Below are positions 11,878 through 18,360 of a stretch of DNA of 30,936 nucleotides, piece by piece. The stretch is from IMG/VR virus record IMGVR_UViG_3300025101_000107, positions 1-30,936 of that record; one strand, 5' to 3'. This stretch comes from a virus. The translations under genes were made by a program, and so were the position numbers. How positions within the stretch are numbered: position 1 is the first letter of the stretch; every line of letters starts with the position of its first letter. The notes below the pieces were generated by a model. It worked only from the letters and a program-made list of their open reading frames with translations, did not search any database and was not told where the DNA came from.

Positions 11878-12291
11878 TTAGCTAGAAACTTTGATTTTTT
11901 TTGGCTTTTGTTCCTCTGGTATGTCTTTTTCCAGTTGAATAACCAAGACACCATCAATCATCTGAGCTTTCTTTACTTCTACGTATTCAGCTAGAGCAAA
12001 TTTTTTATAGAACTCTCGTTCAGAAATTCCTTTATGAATAAATTCTATATCATCCTCTCTCTTTCCGTAGTCTGCAGAGATAGTTAATGTATTATCTTTT
12101 ACTTCAATATCAATGTCAGAACGTTTAAACCCTGCCATTGCCATTTCAATAAAATATGATTCACCTTTTTTAAGAATATTGTAAGGTGGATAGTTTGTAT
12201 TAGGTATTGATGCTCTTTGTAATGTATTAAAGATGTCATCAAACCCGACTGAGAACGGACTGAATTGTCCAAATGCTTTTATGTTTGTCAT
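11878..12291 (-). CDS. Small heat-shock protein, Hsp20/alpha-crystallin family
   Basis: A 137-residue chaperone of IbpA type. The alpha-crystallin domain runs from about residue 35 (PPYNILKKGESYFIEMAMAG) to 125, with the typical DIDIEVKDNTLTISA, the loop RGISEREF-like HKGISEREFYKKFAL, and DGVLVIQLEKDIPEE. It would hold unfolding proteins in the infected cytoplasm. Small Hsp20 genes are well known in marine cyanophages. It is the last gene of the - strand arm and has its own perfect promoter and a thermometer-like leader, separate from the overlapping genes upstream. ATG 12291 is set by AAGGAG at 12297-12302 on the - strand. Confidence 0.93.
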   Translation of the reverse strand: MTNIKAFGQFSPFSVGFDDIFNTLQRASIPNTNYPPYNILKKGESYFIEMAMAGFKRSDIDIEVKDNTLTISADYGKREDDIEFIHKGISEREFYKKFALAEYVEVKKAQMIDGVLVIQLEKDIPEEQKPKKIKVSS

Positions 12292-12382: not shown

Positions 12383-14116
12383 TCATATTGTATAAATTTT
12401 TATAGGTTTTTCTTTACCTTTAACACGGATAGAATCTAACTTTTGATACATAGTTCCATGATAATATTTAATTGTCTCTTCACCTATAACTAAATCTTTA
12501 CCTACTTCCTTACAGCTAGATTCTAAACGAGCTGCTAAGTTTACCGCATCACCTATAGCTGTATAATCAAAACGAGTATCACTTCCCATATTACCTATGA
12601 CAGCTTCACCCGTATTTACACCAATACCTATATCAATATCTAAATCTGATTCTTTCATTTTAGTTTTTATTTCTAACGCTGCTAATATAGCTTGATGTTC
12701 GTGTCTATCTAAATCCATAGGTGCATTAAATATAGCCATCATCGCATCACCAATATATTTATCTACCATTCCACCATACTTTTTAACTGCATCAGCTTGG
12801 ATAGTTAAAGCTTTGTTCATAATCTCTGTGACTTCTTCAGGCTCTAACTTCTCTGACAAACTTGTAAAGCCTCTAACATCTGTAAATAAAAATGTACATC
12901 GTCTTCTTTCACCACCTAACTTTAAAAGCTCTGGATTGTTTTGTAATCGTTTGACTTGAGCTGGGTCAAGATAATGCTCAAATTGTTTCTTAATTTGTTG
13001 ACGAAGTTTAAACTGTGTCCTAAAGTTTAGATAGAACTGTTGAGTTGCGATAAGTGTCATACTTATCAAACTCCAAGTTACATCAACTAAATAACCTAGA
13101 GATACAAAATAATAACCTAAACCAGCAACTGATGACATTACCATACCAGCTAAAAGTAATCCCCACGTTATACCAAAGTAACTTATAATAAAGGCGATTA
13201 GTAATCCGGAAATGCATAATATAAATAGTTCAACAAATAATCTGTAGTCAGGTATGGAAGGAGAGTCAATCAAAATACTTTCTGCAAGTGCAGCCTGTAT
13301 CTTATGAGGCTCTAACAATCCGTTTGGAGTTGCTAACTGTGGCATAACTCCTTTCGCAGTTACACCTATGAATACAAACTTACCTGCAACATCCATTTCT
13401 TTTAAGGTAGTTTGTGGTGTATCAACCCAACTAATCCATTTTCTCCCAAGACTATCTGTGCTTACCGGAGGTAATCCTTTGACTCTTATCATCTCAATAC
13501 CATTCTCGTTAGTCTTAATTTGATAAGTGTCACCACCTACTAATGACTTTAGTACTTGAGTACCAAAGGCAGCAACCCAACCATCTGGAGTTTGCTGTAG
13601 TAAAGGTAATCGTCTGACAAGATTATCTACATCAACTCTTGCCGACACTACTCCTTGAGCTGCTGATTGTTTTAGTATAGGTACATTTTCTAAAAACCCT
13701 GTAGCTTTTGGTAAGTCTACATCTGGTCCAAGGATAACAGTACCATGTGTTTCAGGATAAATATTATTCTCAAACTCTGGCATTGCTAGTACACTAGGAA
13801 CATAACTTAGCATCTGTGAAAAGATTTCATCTCCACCAAACCTATCTGGCTGTGGAAATAGAATAACCCAACCCACTCCTAATGCACCTTCGTTAATTAG
13901 TTGTCGTTGTATCTCTGCTAAGTCTTGTCTAGGAAAAGGATAGCCACCTCTTTCTTGTACGTCTTCTTCAGTAATATTTAAAATTGTAAAATGTCCGGAA
14001 GGCTCTGGAGTTTCTACAAACGTATCAAAAGTTTTAAGTCTAAGTATCTCTAAAGGTACAGAGTTAAAAAGTAAAGGTACAATTAAAAGTCCAAGTAAAG
14101 GTAAAGACCACTTCAT
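12383..14116 (-). CDS. CHASE2-domain class III adenylate cyclase
   Basis: A 577-residue membrane receptor-cyclase predicted to make cAMP from ATP. An N-terminal hydrophobic segment (residues 5-20) leads into a periplasmic CHASE2 domain (about 25-285) with VEITEED-like NITEEDVQERGGYPFPR and FVFIGVTAKG. Three membrane segments follow (about 293-312, 316-338, 343-358), then a coiled linker and the cyclase domain (about 400-577). Catalytic residues are complete: metal ligands D413 (FTDVRGF) and D457 (YIGDAMM), adenine-selecting K453 and T519 (DYTAIGD), and N526/R530 (VNLAAR). ATG 14116 follows AAGGAG overlapping the end of the FecR gene. In bacteria CHASE2 cyclases can lie beside FecR-domain genes, as here. 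It is full length with no broken motif. Confidence 0.93.
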   Translation of the reverse strand: MKWSLPLLGLLIVPLLFNSVPLEILRLKTFDTFVETPEPSGHFTILNITEEDVQERGGYPFPRQDLAEIQRQLINEGALGVGWVILFPQPDRFGGDEIFSQMLSYVPSVLAMPEFENNIYPETHGTVILGPDVDLPKATGFLENVPILKQSAAQGVVSARVDVDNLVRRLPLLQQTPDGWVAAFGTQVLKSLVGGDTYQIKTNENGIEMIRVKGLPPVSTDSLGRKWISWVDTPQTTLKEMDVAGKFVFIGVTAKGVMPQLATPNGLLEPHKIQAALAESILIDSPSIPDYRLFVELFILCISGLLIAFIISYFGITWGLLLAGMVMSSVAGLGYYFVSLGYLVDVTWSLISMTLIATQQFYLNFRTQFKLRQQIKKQFEHYLDPAQVKRLQNNPELLKLGGERRRCTFLFTDVRGFTSLSEKLEPEEVTEIMNKALTIQADAVKKYGGMVDKYIGDAMMAIFNAPMDLDRHEHQAILAALEIKTKMKESDLDIDIGIGVNTGEAVIGNMGSDTRFDYTAIGDAVNLAARLESSCKEVGKDLVIGEETIKYYHGTMYQKLDSIRVKGKEKPIKIYTI

Positions 14117-14117
14117 A

Positions 14118-15227
14118 TTAATCTCCTTGAGTTATCGTTATGGTAGAGCTTCCTCCACCATTCACCACAATCTGAGTGCTCTTACCATTCTGTATTAGTA
14201 TGACAGTATATGAGCCACTCTTATCTAAATCTAACCTAACAGTATCTTCTAACGTTTTGTAAAAAGTTATGAGATTATCTGTTGTAAAAGTATTGATTTG
14301 AGTTTCTTGGTCAAACCCAAATGCTGTACCTTTTAAATCTATATCTGTTTTTAATAGTGTATTAGTTGTATCTAATTCGTTTATATCTTCAATTATATTT
14401 AGTAGGTCTTCTAAAAAATTTACATCTAAATAATTTATATCTAGCTCTGTAAATTCTAATTCATCTCCTGCTAAATAGTCTTGTTCTAAATCGTCAAAAT
14501 CAAGATAATCAATATCAAGAACATTACTTGTACTACTATCTCCGTCTTGTCCTGTGGCAACTTTATTCTCCCTTGGTTTGCTTACAATCAACATGTTATC
14601 AATTAACTCAAGTGTTAAGTCAAGGATAACTGGCTTAGTGGGTTCAGCTTCAAATATAGAAACTGTAGTAGCTTGGTAAGGTTTATTAAGTACAACCTCT
14701 CCCATAGCTGTTGCAACGACAATCTCTCCACTAGGTAGACCGTCATCGTCAGGTAATAATATGACTAAAGAACGACCTAATTCGTCAACAGTCACAGTAA
14801 AATCAGTACCACGAATACCTATCGTAGCACTTGGAGTTTTTATAAATATGTTTTGTTTATCTATAGTTGCGAGTTTTCCTGTGATAAATCTTGCAGTACC
14901 ACTCGCAAACTGTAGAGCCATCTTAGATTTAGATGGGTCAGGGTCATATATAAACTCATCAATAATGAGTTCAGAATGTTCAGTCAATCTTACTTGACTA
15001 TCATCCAGAAACGTAATGCCCACTCTCCCATTGGAAGTTTGGACATTATCGTAACTGTTTATATCGAAGGCTAGTGCAGCTTTGTAAGTATCGTCTCTTA
15101 CAACTCTGCCAAAACCTTCAAGCTCTGTAATGCTGCCTATCTCAGCAACCGACTGCTGTTCCGCCATCGTTTTGGATGACACAAACAGTACCGTTAGAAC
15201 CAGTACTAAGTATTTTAAGCCAGTCAT
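14118..15227 (-). CDS. Periplasmic FecR-domain protein
   Basis: 369 residues with a signal peptide (hydrophobic 6-17, probable cleavage after TMA, residue 22). The FecR domain covers about 35-175: VGITFLDDSQVRLTEHSELIIDEF, then the signature TPSATIGIRGTDF (131-143). A second part is highly acidic and Leu/Asp-repetitive (about 225-290, for example LDIDYLDFDD, LDINYLDVNFLED). The end is beta-rich and Gly/Ser-rich (VVNGGGSSTITITQGD). There is no cytoplasmic anti-sigma helix, so this is a periplasmic structural or ligand-binding FecR, not a classical FecI regulator. It sits between a curlin gene and a CHASE2 cyclase; acting as the cyclase's periplasmic partner is inference. Its first 86 bases overlap the curlin gene. 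Confidence 0.88.
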   Translation of the reverse strand: MTGLKYLVLVLTVLFVSSKTMAEQQSVAEIGSITELEGFGRVVRDDTYKAALAFDINSYDNVQTSNGRVGITFLDDSQVRLTEHSELIIDEFIYDPDPSKSKMALQFASGTARFITGKLATIDKQNIFIKTPSATIGIRGTDFTVTVDELGRSLVILLPDDDGLPSGEIVVATAMGEVVLNKPYQATTVSIFEAEPTKPVILDLTLELIDNMLIVSKPRENKVATGQDGDSSTSNVLDIDYLDFDDLEQDYLAGDELEFTELDINYLDVNFLEDLLNIIEDINELDTTNTLLKTDIDLKGTAFGFDQETQINTFTTDNLITFYKTLEDTVRLDLDKSGSYTVILIQNGKSTQIVVNGGGSSTITITQGD

Positions 15228-15852
15228 TATCTAGTGTACTCTGTTGTTGTATGTTGAATGTTCTAGAACCTCCTGTCTGGTCTAAGTAAAAATAACCACC
15301 AGCATATCCTTGTCCATCAAAACTAACTGTATTACTATCACCATCAATATCTACATAACTTGTGCCACCATCATAATCTATATCAAAGTCTAGTTGGTTT
15401 CCTGAACCATTGATTATCCAATCAAGGTCAGTATTACTAGCCATTGAACTCGTTGCCAAGTCAAGTGTAAAGGTGTTAGTGCTTCCAGTAACATCAACAT
15501 TTAAATTAGAACTATCTGCTCCATAAGTATTTGTCGGGTCTACTTGAATTGTAAAGCTATTACTATCTCCATCAAACTCAAAGAAACCTGTCAAACTATC
15601 AGCTAGAATATCTCCTAAGAATTTATTAGTGTCACCAATTTGATTGATGTCTAATGTCATTCCTGTTCCGTCTAAGTCAAGAGGTGTTAATGTACCGGCT
15701 ACGGAATTTAAACCTCCAATAATATTAGCAGAACCGAGTTGCTCTAAATCAAGATTTGCTGTCGCACCAGATTGCTCAACATATATTTCATTATCTGCAG
15801 CATAAATACCTAAAGATATTATAGCTACTAAACTTAATATTATTTTATTCAT
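15142..15852 (-). CDS. Secreted curlin-repeat-like protein (candidate CsgG cargo)
   Basis: 236 residues with a clean signal peptide (MNKIILSLVAIISLGIYA, cut before ADN). The mature start has two good curlin-type units, NEIYVEQSGATANLDLEQLG and MTLDINQIGDTNKF, fitting the x-Q-x-G-x2-N pattern. Further N-rich beta units with Asp in place of Gln follow (FEFDGDSNSFTI, LNVDVTGSTNTFTL, YVDIDGDSNTVSF), then a GGYFYLDQTGGSRTFNIQQQ unit. The end CVIQNDGGTAVGC has a Cys pair. A stacked beta-solenoid like CsgA is likely, but the repeats are degenerate, so amyloid formation is not certain. It starts 8 bases inside the end of csgG, so coexpression is near certain. Confidence 0.8.
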   Translation of the reverse strand: MNKIILSLVAIISLGIYAADNEIYVEQSGATANLDLEQLGSANIIGGLNSVAGTLTPLDLDGTGMTLDINQIGDTNKFLGDILADSLTGFFEFDGDSNSFTIQVDPTNTYGADSSNLNVDVTGSTNTFTLDLATSSMASNTDLDWIINGSGNQLDFDIDYDGGTSYVDIDGDSNTVSFDGQGYAGGYFYLDQTGGSRTFNIQQQSTLDNDWLKILSTGSNGTVCVIQNDGGTAVGC

Positions 15853-16651
15853 ATTCCCAATAGCCTCTCTCTATTCCTATATTTATTATATTTAAAACTC
15901 CTGTCTCTATTGCCTTTTGTAAAGCTATAGATACAGATTCATTCTCAGCCACGCCTCCTTCTATTTCTACTAACTCTGTTTGTTGTTCAATAAAACGAAA
16001 AACATCCTGAGATATGCTTGTAGATAAAATACTTTTAGTCACTAAAGTTTCTATTAGTACTTCACCTGTGGATACTGAAACTAATCGCAATGATATAGTT
16101 ACATTATCTTCTCGGTATTGTTTACTGTTACCTATTCCTAAGTAACGAGCACCCAATCCTCCAGACCTTTGGTTCGCTTCATAAGAAACGACACCGCCCT
16201 GAACCAGTAGCCCTGCAAATAACAAGGGCTTTAATTTATTATCTTCTTCAAACTCTTTACGAGTTGTACGTATGAGTTGTCTTTCTTTGGTAAGGTCATC
16301 TAAACCTACACGTTCTACAACTCTAAAAAAGTTACCACCTGATGTATGCTTTAATGCTCTAATTAAAAACGCTTCAGGTGCTTGTGTTATTGCAGTACTA
16401 AATAAAGCAAACGAACTATTGCTTCTTCGTTGCCCTGTTAAATCTTTAAAACTATTAGGGTATATCGCTATTGTAGGCTGTACTTTTGCTGCCGGTAAGT
16501 TTAGTAATTCTTCTGATTGTAATGTTAGTGTTGTTGGAGCTTGTATCTTTTTTGTTAATACTAAATCATTATTCTGACTTATAACTGCACAACCACTAGA
16601 AAGTAAAACTACCAATAGGCAACTGAATAATCGTAACATTTCCATCTGCAT
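15845..16651 (-). CDS. csgG: Curli secretion channel lipoprotein CsgG
   Basis: 268 residues, very close to bacterial CsgG (277). A lipoprotein signal ends at C21 (LLSSGC; the -3 residue is Ser rather than the usual Leu). Conserved blocks are SFKDLTGQ (67-74), FFRVVERVGLDDLTKERQLIR (108-128), YEANQRSGGLGARYLGIG (157-174), ISLRLVSVSTGEVL (186-199), DVFRFIE (216-222) and AIETGVLNIINIGIERGYW (247-265). CsgG forms a nonameric outer-membrane pore that exports curlin subunits. ATG 16651 is the longest start; 16645 and 16639 are possible. It overlaps csgF by up to 56 bases. No CsgE, CsgB, CsgC or CsgD homologue is in the window. Confidence 0.95.
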   Translation of the reverse strand: MQMEMLRLFSCLLVVLLSSGCAVISQNNDLVLTKKIQAPTTLTLQSEELLNLPAAKVQPTIAIYPNSFKDLTGQRRSNSSFALFSTAITQAPEAFLIRALKHTSGGNFFRVVERVGLDDLTKERQLIRTTRKEFEEDNKLKPLLFAGLLVQGGVVSYEANQRSGGLGARYLGIGNSKQYREDNVTISLRLVSVSTGEVLIETLVTKSILSTSISQDVFRFIEQQTELVEIEGGVAENESVSIALQKAIETGVLNIINIGIERGYWEYE

Positions 16652-17105
16652 CCGTAATTGTAAGTGTTATTATTTCTCCATCGCTTATATAAGAAATGGT
16701 ATTTCCTTCAAGTTCTATAGTACCTTCTGTACTAGGGTTCTCCCCAAATAAATTTTCTACTAATTGCCTTGATAGTTGTGCGTAAATCCGTGACTCTAGA
16801 TTTCTAATAAATCTTGCGAGTGTTGTGTTTTCCTTGTCTCTTTTGATTTGCTCTTGTAAAGCTTTGATTTCTTCTTTGATTGTCATCTTACGATTAAACT
16901 CTTGGTTCTCAATAGTAAGATAATGAGAGCTAGTATTTTCTCCACTAAACGATGGGTTCTTAAACTTATGAACCATTTCATCTGCAAAAGCTATGTTAAT
17001 AAAAAACATAGACAAACCCATTAATCCTAGTACACAAACTTGTACTATCGAAGCAATAGTAATTTGTGTCATTGGATGTATATTTTCAATCTTTTCTTTG
17101 GTCAT
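16596..17105 (-). CDS. csgF: Curli assembly factor CsgF
   Basis: 169 residues from ATG 17105; a TTG 18 bases upstream is less likely, and ATG 17072 would give a shorter signal peptide. A hydrophobic signal (residues 14-40) ends at FA, and the mature start DEMVHKFKNPSFSGENTSS matches the CsgF N-terminus that plugs the CsgG pore (FRNPNFGG in E. coli). The middle (KEEIKALQEQIKRDKEN) is helical. The C-terminal block SRIYAQLSRQLVENLFG, ISYISDGEIITLTITD and TIIQLP matches the end of CsgF. It caps the extracellular side of CsgG and couples export to nucleation. The start overlaps the upstream gene by 20 bases and the end overlaps csgG, so all three form one operon with the lysis genes. Confidence 0.9.
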   Translation of the reverse strand: MTKEKIENIHPMTQITIASIVQVCVLGLMGLSMFFINIAFADEMVHKFKNPSFSGENTSSHYLTIENQEFNRKMTIKEEIKALQEQIKRDKENTTLARFIRNLESRIYAQLSRQLVENLFGENPSTEGTIELEGNTISYISDGEIITLTITDADGNVTIIQLPIGSFTF

Positions 17106-17436
17106 CTCTGTCTGCCTTTGCAATCTTATCTATCTCTACTAAGTTTGGTACGCCTAGTAAAGTTTTAAGTAGAACATCCTGTCTAATACTTTGATTATCC
17201 ATTGCTCTTACTCTATCAATTAAACTAACTATGATGCCATATTGACTGTCAAGTTTAGTGGTTACTCTCTCTTCCATTGTATCTAAACTTGCTTGTACCT
17301 TATCATCTAAAGTATCAAGTTTGGCTTCCATGCCATCTATAATTCTATTTATTAACTTCCATATAAACCATCCAAGTCCTAACGCTGCTGCGATTGGAAA
17401 ACCTACTTGGTTTATTACATTTATAAATTCGTCCAT
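17086..17436 (-). CDS. Single-pass membrane protein with coiled coil (116 aa), lysis region
   Basis: One N-terminal membrane segment (FPIAAALGLGWFIWKLI, residues 13-29) is followed by a long predicted coiled coil (GMEAKLDTLDDKVQASLDTM and on to residue 80), then a charged tail. Such N-in membrane-plus-coil proteins sit beside holin and lysozyme genes in many marine phages and may be a second holin, an antiholin or an inner-membrane spanin. A lipoprotein spanin partner is not seen. The start codon region overlaps the end of the holin-like gene by 1 base. Confidence 0.65.
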   Translation of the reverse strand: MDEFINVINQVGFPIAAALGLGWFIWKLINRIIDGMEAKLDTLDDKVQASLDTMEERVTTKLDSQYGIIVSLIDRVRAMDNQSIRQDVLLKTLLGVPNLVEIDKIAKADRDDQRKD

Positions 17437-17909
17437 TACTCTTTCGTAGAGTTAGAAGCTCCGAAGTAAAAACTAATTACTGCCGATGCTAGACCACCTA
17501 AATAACCTAACACTAAATTTATTAACGCTTCTGAGTTTTGTTCTGGTGGTTGTAGTGTTACTAAGAATATATATCCTAAGAATCCACCAACTGTAGCTAT
17601 ACCCATGATACGAGCTGTCCAATCTTTACTAAAGTTTTTTCTAGCATCTTGAGTGTCAGCTACTTCTAACTTGTAAACATCTACATCAAGCTCTTTCATC
17701 TGTACTTCAAAAGCTTGTTCAGCTTTCTTTAGCTCAAGCATCTGTTCAGGTGTAGCTTCTTGTACTGCTTTCTCTATAGCCTTTGGTGTATTAGGTACTC
17801 CCAATACATCAGCTATCATATTAGCTGCCATGCCTCCCATAGGTCCGCCTAATGCAGTTCCTAATGTAGGAGCAACAGCTCCAACTATATTTTTTAATAG
17901 TCCTTTCAT
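17436..17909 (-). CDS. Holin-like protein, GTA_holin_3TM type
   Basis: 157 residues. A hydrophobic Gly-rich N-terminus (GAVAPTLGTALGGPMGGMAA) precedes a charged helical section (EKAVQEATPEQMLELKKAEQ) and two strong membrane segments near the end (IMGIATVGGFLGYIFLVTL and INLVLGYLGGLASAVISFYF). The order and the GGPMGGMA plus tail pattern match the 3TM holin family of phages and gene transfer agents. It would permeabilise the inner membrane and release the adjacent lysozyme. It lies one base after the lysozyme gene. Confidence 0.75.
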   Translation of the reverse strand: MKGLLKNIVGAVAPTLGTALGGPMGGMAANMIADVLGVPNTPKAIEKAVQEATPEQMLELKKAEQAFEVQMKELDVDVYKLEVADTQDARKNFSKDWTARIMGIATVGGFLGYIFLVTLQPPEQNSEALINLVLGYLGGLASAVISFYFGASNSTKE

Positions 17910-17910
17910 T

Positions 17911-18360
17911 TCATACTCCTAGTACCATATCTTGTAATTCTTTACTACGTCTGCCCACTTGTCCGAACCATCTAGAGTCTTCCATTTGAACAGCCATTTC
18001 TTTCCAGTTATGTTCTCTACAAGCTTTTAACATGTTTCTAAATTTGGAAAGTCTGTTTGCACCTAAGTTAAAACACATATTAACTAAGACGTGTTGTATG
18101 TCTTCAGGTAAGTTATAAAAATCTTCATCACTTCCAAAGACGTGTCTAGCCTCTTCCAAGTGTTTATGAAAGTCATCTTCATAATACATGTCTACAACTT
18201 CTTGACTAATCGGTGTACCAACTTCTAAGTTATATTCAGGGTCTTGAGGCTGACATAAGTGTCCTATGCCTAAAGTTTTATATCCTAAACTATCTTCGTA
18301 AATTTCTAACACTTCTCCTTCGTGTCTTTTAATTTGTTCTTTACATAAATCTATATTCAT
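17911..18360 (-). CDS. T4-type lysozyme (GH24 endolysin)
   Basis: 149 residues. The catalytic triad has the T4 lysozyme spacing: E14 in RHEGEVLEIY, D23 in YEDSLGYKT and T29, followed by GIGHL (compare E11, D20 and T26 of T4). The second lobe carries LVNMCFNLGANRLSKFRNML and RWFGQVGRRSKELQDM. It cleaves the peptidoglycan glycan chain. There is no signal peptide or N-terminal membrane anchor, so release should depend on the holin. The start overlaps the stop of the large upstream gene by 4 bases. Confidence 0.95.
   Translation of the reverse strand: MNIDLCKEQIKRHEGEVLEIYEDSLGYKTLGIGHLCQPQDPEYNLEVGTPISQEVVDMYYEDDFHKHLEEARHVFGSDEDFYNLPEDIQHVLVNMCFNLGANRLSKFRNMLKACREHNWKEMAVQMEDSRWFGQVGRRSKELQDMVLGV

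Follow-up and report, generated by a model that had tools for sequence, protein, structure and literature searches.

What does a pelagic phage do with genes for curli-type secretion, and which of their neighbours belong with them? This question is raised by a viral DNA stretch of 30,936 nucleotides (IMG/VR record IMGVR_UViG_3300025101_000107), which we call the window. Five consecutive genes on its minus strand encode CsgF, CsgG, a curlin-like protein, a FecR-domain protein and a CHASE2 class III cyclase (Table 1). The cassette is placed between hsp20 and the lysis genes and lies on the same strand as the virion and lysozyme genes. A first-pass annotation, made from the sequence alone, had described five genes running in one direction behind the lysis genes, and the open reading frames are indeed found at the positions it gave. 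It had also called all five overlapping, which is true of the junctions CsgF/CsgG (56 bp), CsgG/curlin (8 bp) and curlin/FecR (86 bp) but not of FecR and the cyclase, which are separated by a 1-bp gap. Within the longest overlap (15142-15227) the curlin gene ends and FecR begins, with its signal peptide; it is likewise 86 bp long in locus L233, and the corresponding genes of HTVC008M do not overlap. The neighbouring g157 protein has C-terminal hydrophobic segments that look holin-like by inspection, and the location of its gene differs among phage lineages. The lysozyme is a gene of its own in the window; in HTVC103P the large virion protein gp52 (L084:19146-24161) has a related domain at its C-terminal end.

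Table 1. Genes of the module and its neighbours, with positions in the window.
Feature	Position	Strand	Evidence
Hsp20, gene flanking the cassette	11878-12291	-	Pfam HSP20 2e-18
Cyclase (CHASE2 + class III adenylate cyclase)	12383-14116	-	Pfam CHASE2 7.5e-27, Guanylate_cyc 8.1e-21
FecR-domain protein	14118-15227	-	Pfam FecR 5.7e-11; signal peptide (by eye)
Curlin-like secreted protein, CsgA/B-type likely cargo	15142-15852	-	Family profile; signal peptide (by eye)
csgG, outer-membrane secretion channel lipoprotein	15845-16651	-	Pfam CsgG 5.7e-49; lipobox LSSGC
csgF, secreted CsgG-binding accessory protein	16596-17105 (ATG) or 17123 (TTG)	-	Pfam CsgF 1.9e-20
g116, 116 aa, first module gene	17086-17436	-	PHROG 18771
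g157, small protein, neighbour outside the core	17436-17909	-	PHROG 1544, function unknown
GH24 phage lysozyme, neighbour	17911-18360	-	Pfam Phage_lysozyme 3.1e-9

An independent IMG/VR contig of 52,962 bp (G001) matches all 30,936 bases of the window at 99.9% identity. There is thus no assembly-specific junction near 11.8 or 17.1 kb, and a chimera or assembly artefact is ruled out. The worry voiced beforehand, that the gene set might be confined to a single contig or to a host-phage chimera, is dispelled by this match and by two sets of 80 IMG/VR loci that carry the set. On G001, identities to HTVC115P are 66% for the terminase, 60% for the portal, 60% for the capsid, 54% for the polymerase and 72% for nrdB; HTVC115P is the closer of the two HTVC103P-type genomes compared, and for the polymerase it was also the closest in a wide search. 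From these HTVC103P-like replication and morphogenesis genes, we assign the window's carrier to the HTVC103P-type pelagiphages (HTVC103P, HTVC104P, HTVC115P), with which it has its genome plan in common. An HTVC023P-type identity was considered and rejected, as HTVC115P and HTVC103P are closest; two other loci, L049 and L059, are of the HTVC023P type. In HTVC103P and HTVC115P, which do not have the module, hsp20 directly adjoins the large virion gene, whereas the window phage has the module in between, as an accessory cassette. The host was probably SAR11 or a relative, and SAR11 hosts are described in the literature as being without such a secretion system. GC content is 35%, against 30-33% in two reference stretches.

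The first-pass annotation had taken the five-gene set to be missing from the literature. This was wrong: Wittmers et al. 2022 (PMC9599517) had found the module in podophages of the HTVC023P type and in myophages like HTVC008M. They give its order as 'HK'-CsgF-CsgG-CsgA/B-FecR-(CsgA/B)-adenylate cyclase and describe cross-family transfer, an ocean-wide distribution, expression in ocean metatranscriptomes, and superinfection-defence and sibling-capture hypotheses. The csgFG genes have also been noted in pelagimyophages (PMC7029224), and a lysis-related, pinholin-like CsgG pore has been proposed for the phage Melnitz (PMC9004378). Blocking superinfection and gathering cells, both put forward for the window by the annotation, are therefore ideas already present in PMC9599517, and its lysis-pore idea is present in PMC9004378. 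The CsgF-CsgG-CsgA/B-FecR-adenylate cyclase order is common to the published module and the window, and the proposed roles are alike. HTVC103P does not appear in the text of PMC9599517, and the window module is a member of the published pelagiphage type VIII secretion kind in a lineage that this paper does not name. HTVC008M (a Pelagibacter phage) and Melnitz (a Methylophilales phage) have the same order, with CsgG 40-45% and the cyclase about 35% identical to those of the window; these T4-like myophages differ in having a further curlin gene, placed between FecR and the cyclase, two g116 copies and, unlike the window, no lysozyme adjoining the module. What is new here is the HTVC103P-type carrier, the distinction between invariant and optional genes, the probable identity of the published 'HK' as g116, and the apparently separate bacterial halves.

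A search anchored on the cyclase returned 80 IMG/VR loci with the same gene order, so that the conserved co-occurrence in phage contigs for which the earlier annotation proposed to look does recur, in scores of contigs. To avoid choosing loci by their cyclase, the search was repeated from csgG, counting only loci with enough flanking DNA; each set comprises the best 80 matches and so is biased towards phages close to the window, and the two sets have some contigs in common. Around csgG, CsgF was present in 71/71 testable loci, g116 in 70/70 (always upstream of csgF), the curlin-like gene in 61/61 and FecR in 55/55. No testable csgG-anchored locus departs from the order g116-csgF-csgG-curlin-FecR, which is also constant across three phage lineages, and a lysozyme lies nearby in 34 of 53 testable loci. 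All six module genes are under purifying selection, with median dN/dS of 0.17-0.37 (a crude NG86 estimate on uncurated open reading frames).

The cyclase behaves differently. It occurs in 28 of the 34 testable csgG loci, directly after FecR in 24 and inverted beside nrdB in four. A class III cyclase is absent from the entire records of the other six loci (one record is 52 kb long, the others 7-19 kb), and in the five of them that we inspected FecR is followed at once by the next gene, which is convergent. In this respect our data differ from PMC9599517: some modules that are complete in every other respect lack the cyclase altogether. Because CsgF, g116, curlin and FecR are always present while the cyclase is not, the cyclase is an optional member, and the 'FecR-CHASE2 cyclase pair' of the first-pass annotation is not the unit; its FecR half belongs to the core, and its cyclase half may be missing or moved.

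The core also has a member that had been overlooked, since g116 was at first counted in the lysis cassette. The gene belongs to one family (PHROG 18771) across all three phage lineages; relatives carry it once or twice (twice in HTVC008M and Melnitz), and their proteins are 85-117 aa long. Reading its topology from the sequence by inspection, we found one predicted N-terminal membrane helix, a coiled coil and a conserved basic C-terminus. It shows weak similarity to the holin family phrog_4898 (best 1e-4) and to YvrJ. Neither HisKA, HATPase nor any other kinase domain was matched when ten family members were scanned with Pfam and PHROGs. PMC9599517 describes one or two 'histidine kinase' ('HK') genes, called short, that precede CsgF. 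By position, copy number and short length, the published 'HK' is most likely g116; in the window, no recognisable histidine kinase precedes the module and this short one-helix membrane protein stands there instead. The 'histidine kinase' label seems to need a second look.

The two secretion components are well supported, as the first-pass annotation had read from their signatures (E-values in Table 1). The window CsgG matches the E. coli channel (structure 3x2r) along its whole length (3.9e-44, residues 6-267). CsgF gave no match in a phmmer search of the PDB; read by hand, its N-terminal motif FKNPSFSG partly keeps the CsgG-binding motif, and relatives often have FKSPSFSG. No gene for CsgE, CsgC or CsgD was found in the module with Pfam. 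These three are also missing from alphaproteobacterial systems (PMC9599517), so their absence leaves membership of type VIII secretion possible. For the curlin-like protein there was no Pfam match above cut-off. A profile of its family matches open reading frames beside csgG in 5/5 alphaproteobacterial csgF loci (E 1e-11 to 3.6e-4), with no match outside csg loci and phage modules, including 80 bacterial loci without csg genes. Its Q-x-G-x-x-N repeats are degenerate, and few are clear. An AlphaFold2 model (pLDDT 80, pTM 0.75) is all-beta after the signal helix and predicts an irregular beta-solenoid; against solved structures it had no significant match, the CsgA fibril ranking 41st with E = 2. 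The profile matches to bacterial curlins adjoining csgG favour the earlier suggestion that this protein is the likely export cargo.

Structure prediction was of no use for FecR, whose model is of low quality (pLDDT 50). Its C-terminal tail ends in an ITITQ motif; FecR tails such as TITITQGD resemble the C-termini of the curlin-like proteins in HTVC008M and Melnitz (VTQN, IIQRD, ISQTD), and a common C-terminal export or nucleation signal in the two proteins is possible. In the cyclase, all seven catalytic positions inspected are intact, which bears out the complete set of catalytic residues noted earlier. The two metal-binding Asp, the purine-binding Lys and the transition-state Asn and Arg are invariant in 79/79 cyclase homologues, and the other two positions vary only between D/E and T/S. 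The Melnitz cyclase (L083) has Ser in place of the transition-state Asn (VSTAAR), and its activity may be reduced. No cNMP-binding protein is encoded in the 13 module-bearing phage records searched, most of which are fragments; with no phage receptor among these records, cAMP would have to act through a receptor supplied by the host. In the order to which one marine genome with FecR and cyclase belongs, cNMP-binding domains turned up in 32/32; as this order is not shown to be SAR11, the count decides nothing about a SAR11 receptor. FecR and the cyclase may, as the first-pass annotation inferred, signal from the periplasm to cAMP.

Bacterial genomes hold counterparts of both halves of the module. 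No csgF or csgG lies within 10 kb of the 80 closest bacterial CHASE2-cyclase loci, and CsgF is found in 1 of 42 genomes with such loci. A FecR gene occurs within 3 kb in 24/80 of these loci, directly upstream in 16/80. The FecR-domain gene thus adjoins a CHASE2 signalling gene as in the window, but in bacteria the partner FecR proteins are longer, at about 480-1750 aa, and cadherin, VWA or laminin-G domains occur in some of them; a Burkholderia operon pairs FecR with a CHASE2 histidine kinase (PMC5192318). Conversely, csgF was present in 5 of 385 alphaproteobacterial genomes sampled. At these five loci csgF, csgG and curlin are adjacent (5/5), as in the phage module, and no FecR, cyclase or g116 gene lies within about 10 kb. 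PMC9599517 had placed FecR and the cyclase outside canonical curli operons; our counts agree and add numbers. From gene neighbourhoods, curli genes and FecR/CHASE2-cyclase genes appear to be separate units in the bacteria sampled and joined only in phages. No bacterial precursor operon with both halves was found within this limited sample.

We favour, with a probability of roughly 0.5, a pelagiphage type VIII secretion module that is expressed late and places the curlin-like protein on the infected cell. In its favour are the fixed order of the core, the full-length CsgG match, the curlin profile matches in bacteria, the dN/dS values, the location on the virion and lysozyme strand, and the published module with its like gene order and reported expression. 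The module would be transcribed on the late (virion and lysis) strand; CsgG would form an outer-membrane channel with CsgF docked on it, and the exported curlin-like protein would assemble into fibres that coat the infected cell with an amyloid-like layer. FecR would act in the periplasm as a core part and g116 as the inner-membrane part, and the CHASE2 cyclase, as an optional add-on, would report the state of the envelope or of FecR as cAMP. The benefit, following the published hypotheses, could be the exclusion of competing phages or the holding together of sibling cells. Against this reading count the absence of CsgE and CsgC, the few clear curlin repeats, the lack of a fold match, the lack of a cAMP receptor in the phage records searched, the lean of the csgG-anchored set towards relatives of the window, and the infected culture of Melnitz, a phage with csgGF, which showed no clumping (PMC9004378). 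CsgG and CsgF could also serve alone as a pore. A more specific proposal, which we hold tentatively, is that the working unit, rather than curli plus cyclase, is a phage-specific envelope machine of five proteins (g116-CsgF-CsgG-curlin-FecR). Holin-like g116 in the inner membrane and FecR in the periplasm would be obligate for its curlin export, a route unseen in the bacteria sampled, and the cyclase would be a plug-in sensor.

Pore formation is the core of a different reading, in which the module is a lysis or leak device: CsgG, perhaps together with holin-like g116, would breach the envelope late in infection, and the curlin and FecR genes would be inherited baggage. The module and g116 adjoin the lysozyme and a holin-like gene in the window, the lysozyme counts and the weak holin similarity of g116 fit this idea, and so does the pore proposed in PMC9004378. 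Curlin and FecR, however, are invariant and under purifying selection, which ill suits baggage; the HTVC008M and Melnitz modules have no adjoining lysozyme; and CsgG, as an outer-membrane channel, would leave the inner-membrane potential uncollapsed. We consider a lysis device unlikely. An ungated CsgG channel could instead admit nutrients or siderophores during infection with FecR and the cyclase as sensor, an idea raised in PMC9599517 and PMC7029224 and consistent with the missing CsgE gate gene. Uptake, which we regard as quite unlikely, needs neither CsgF nor curlin, both of them invariant. Classical FecIRA systems have a sigma factor and a TonB receptor alongside FecR and no such signal peptide, whereas the FecR of the window carries a signal peptide and has neither gene as a neighbour.

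The cyclase might also be independent of secretion, for example tuning host or phage physiology through cAMP while riding with the curli genes. Its absence from 6/34 csgG loci, its inverted position beside nrdAB in four more and, within the cyclase-anchored set, in L005-L009, and the life of its closest bacterial relatives without curli all speak for this. The 24/34 testable loci that keep it directly after FecR, and the 24/80 bacterial loci with a FecR gene nearby, make a FecR link plausible, and full independence is to our minds possible but doubtful. Returning to the secretion module, its wider interest is that related marine phages keep a multi-gene surface-secretion system of no established purpose under purifying selection. 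The division into invariant genes, g116 and FecR included, and an optional cyclase is a guide to which genes experiments should express first, and a cAMP-regulation story built on the cyclase seems to need a second look.

Several minor observations concern neighbouring regions and records. A csgG-like gene is present in OR851715.1, a record of 1,499 bases under a Salmonella phage label, which may be host DNA. The inverted cyclase beside nrdB, in several cases together with hsp20, was seen in L223-L225 and L228 as well as in L005-L009; the inversion would shift the cyclase from the late strand to that of the replication genes. Three cyclase-less loci (L241, L243 and L248) carry a 643-aa protein where others have nrdA/nrdB, by eye a different ribonucleotide reductase, possibly of class II.
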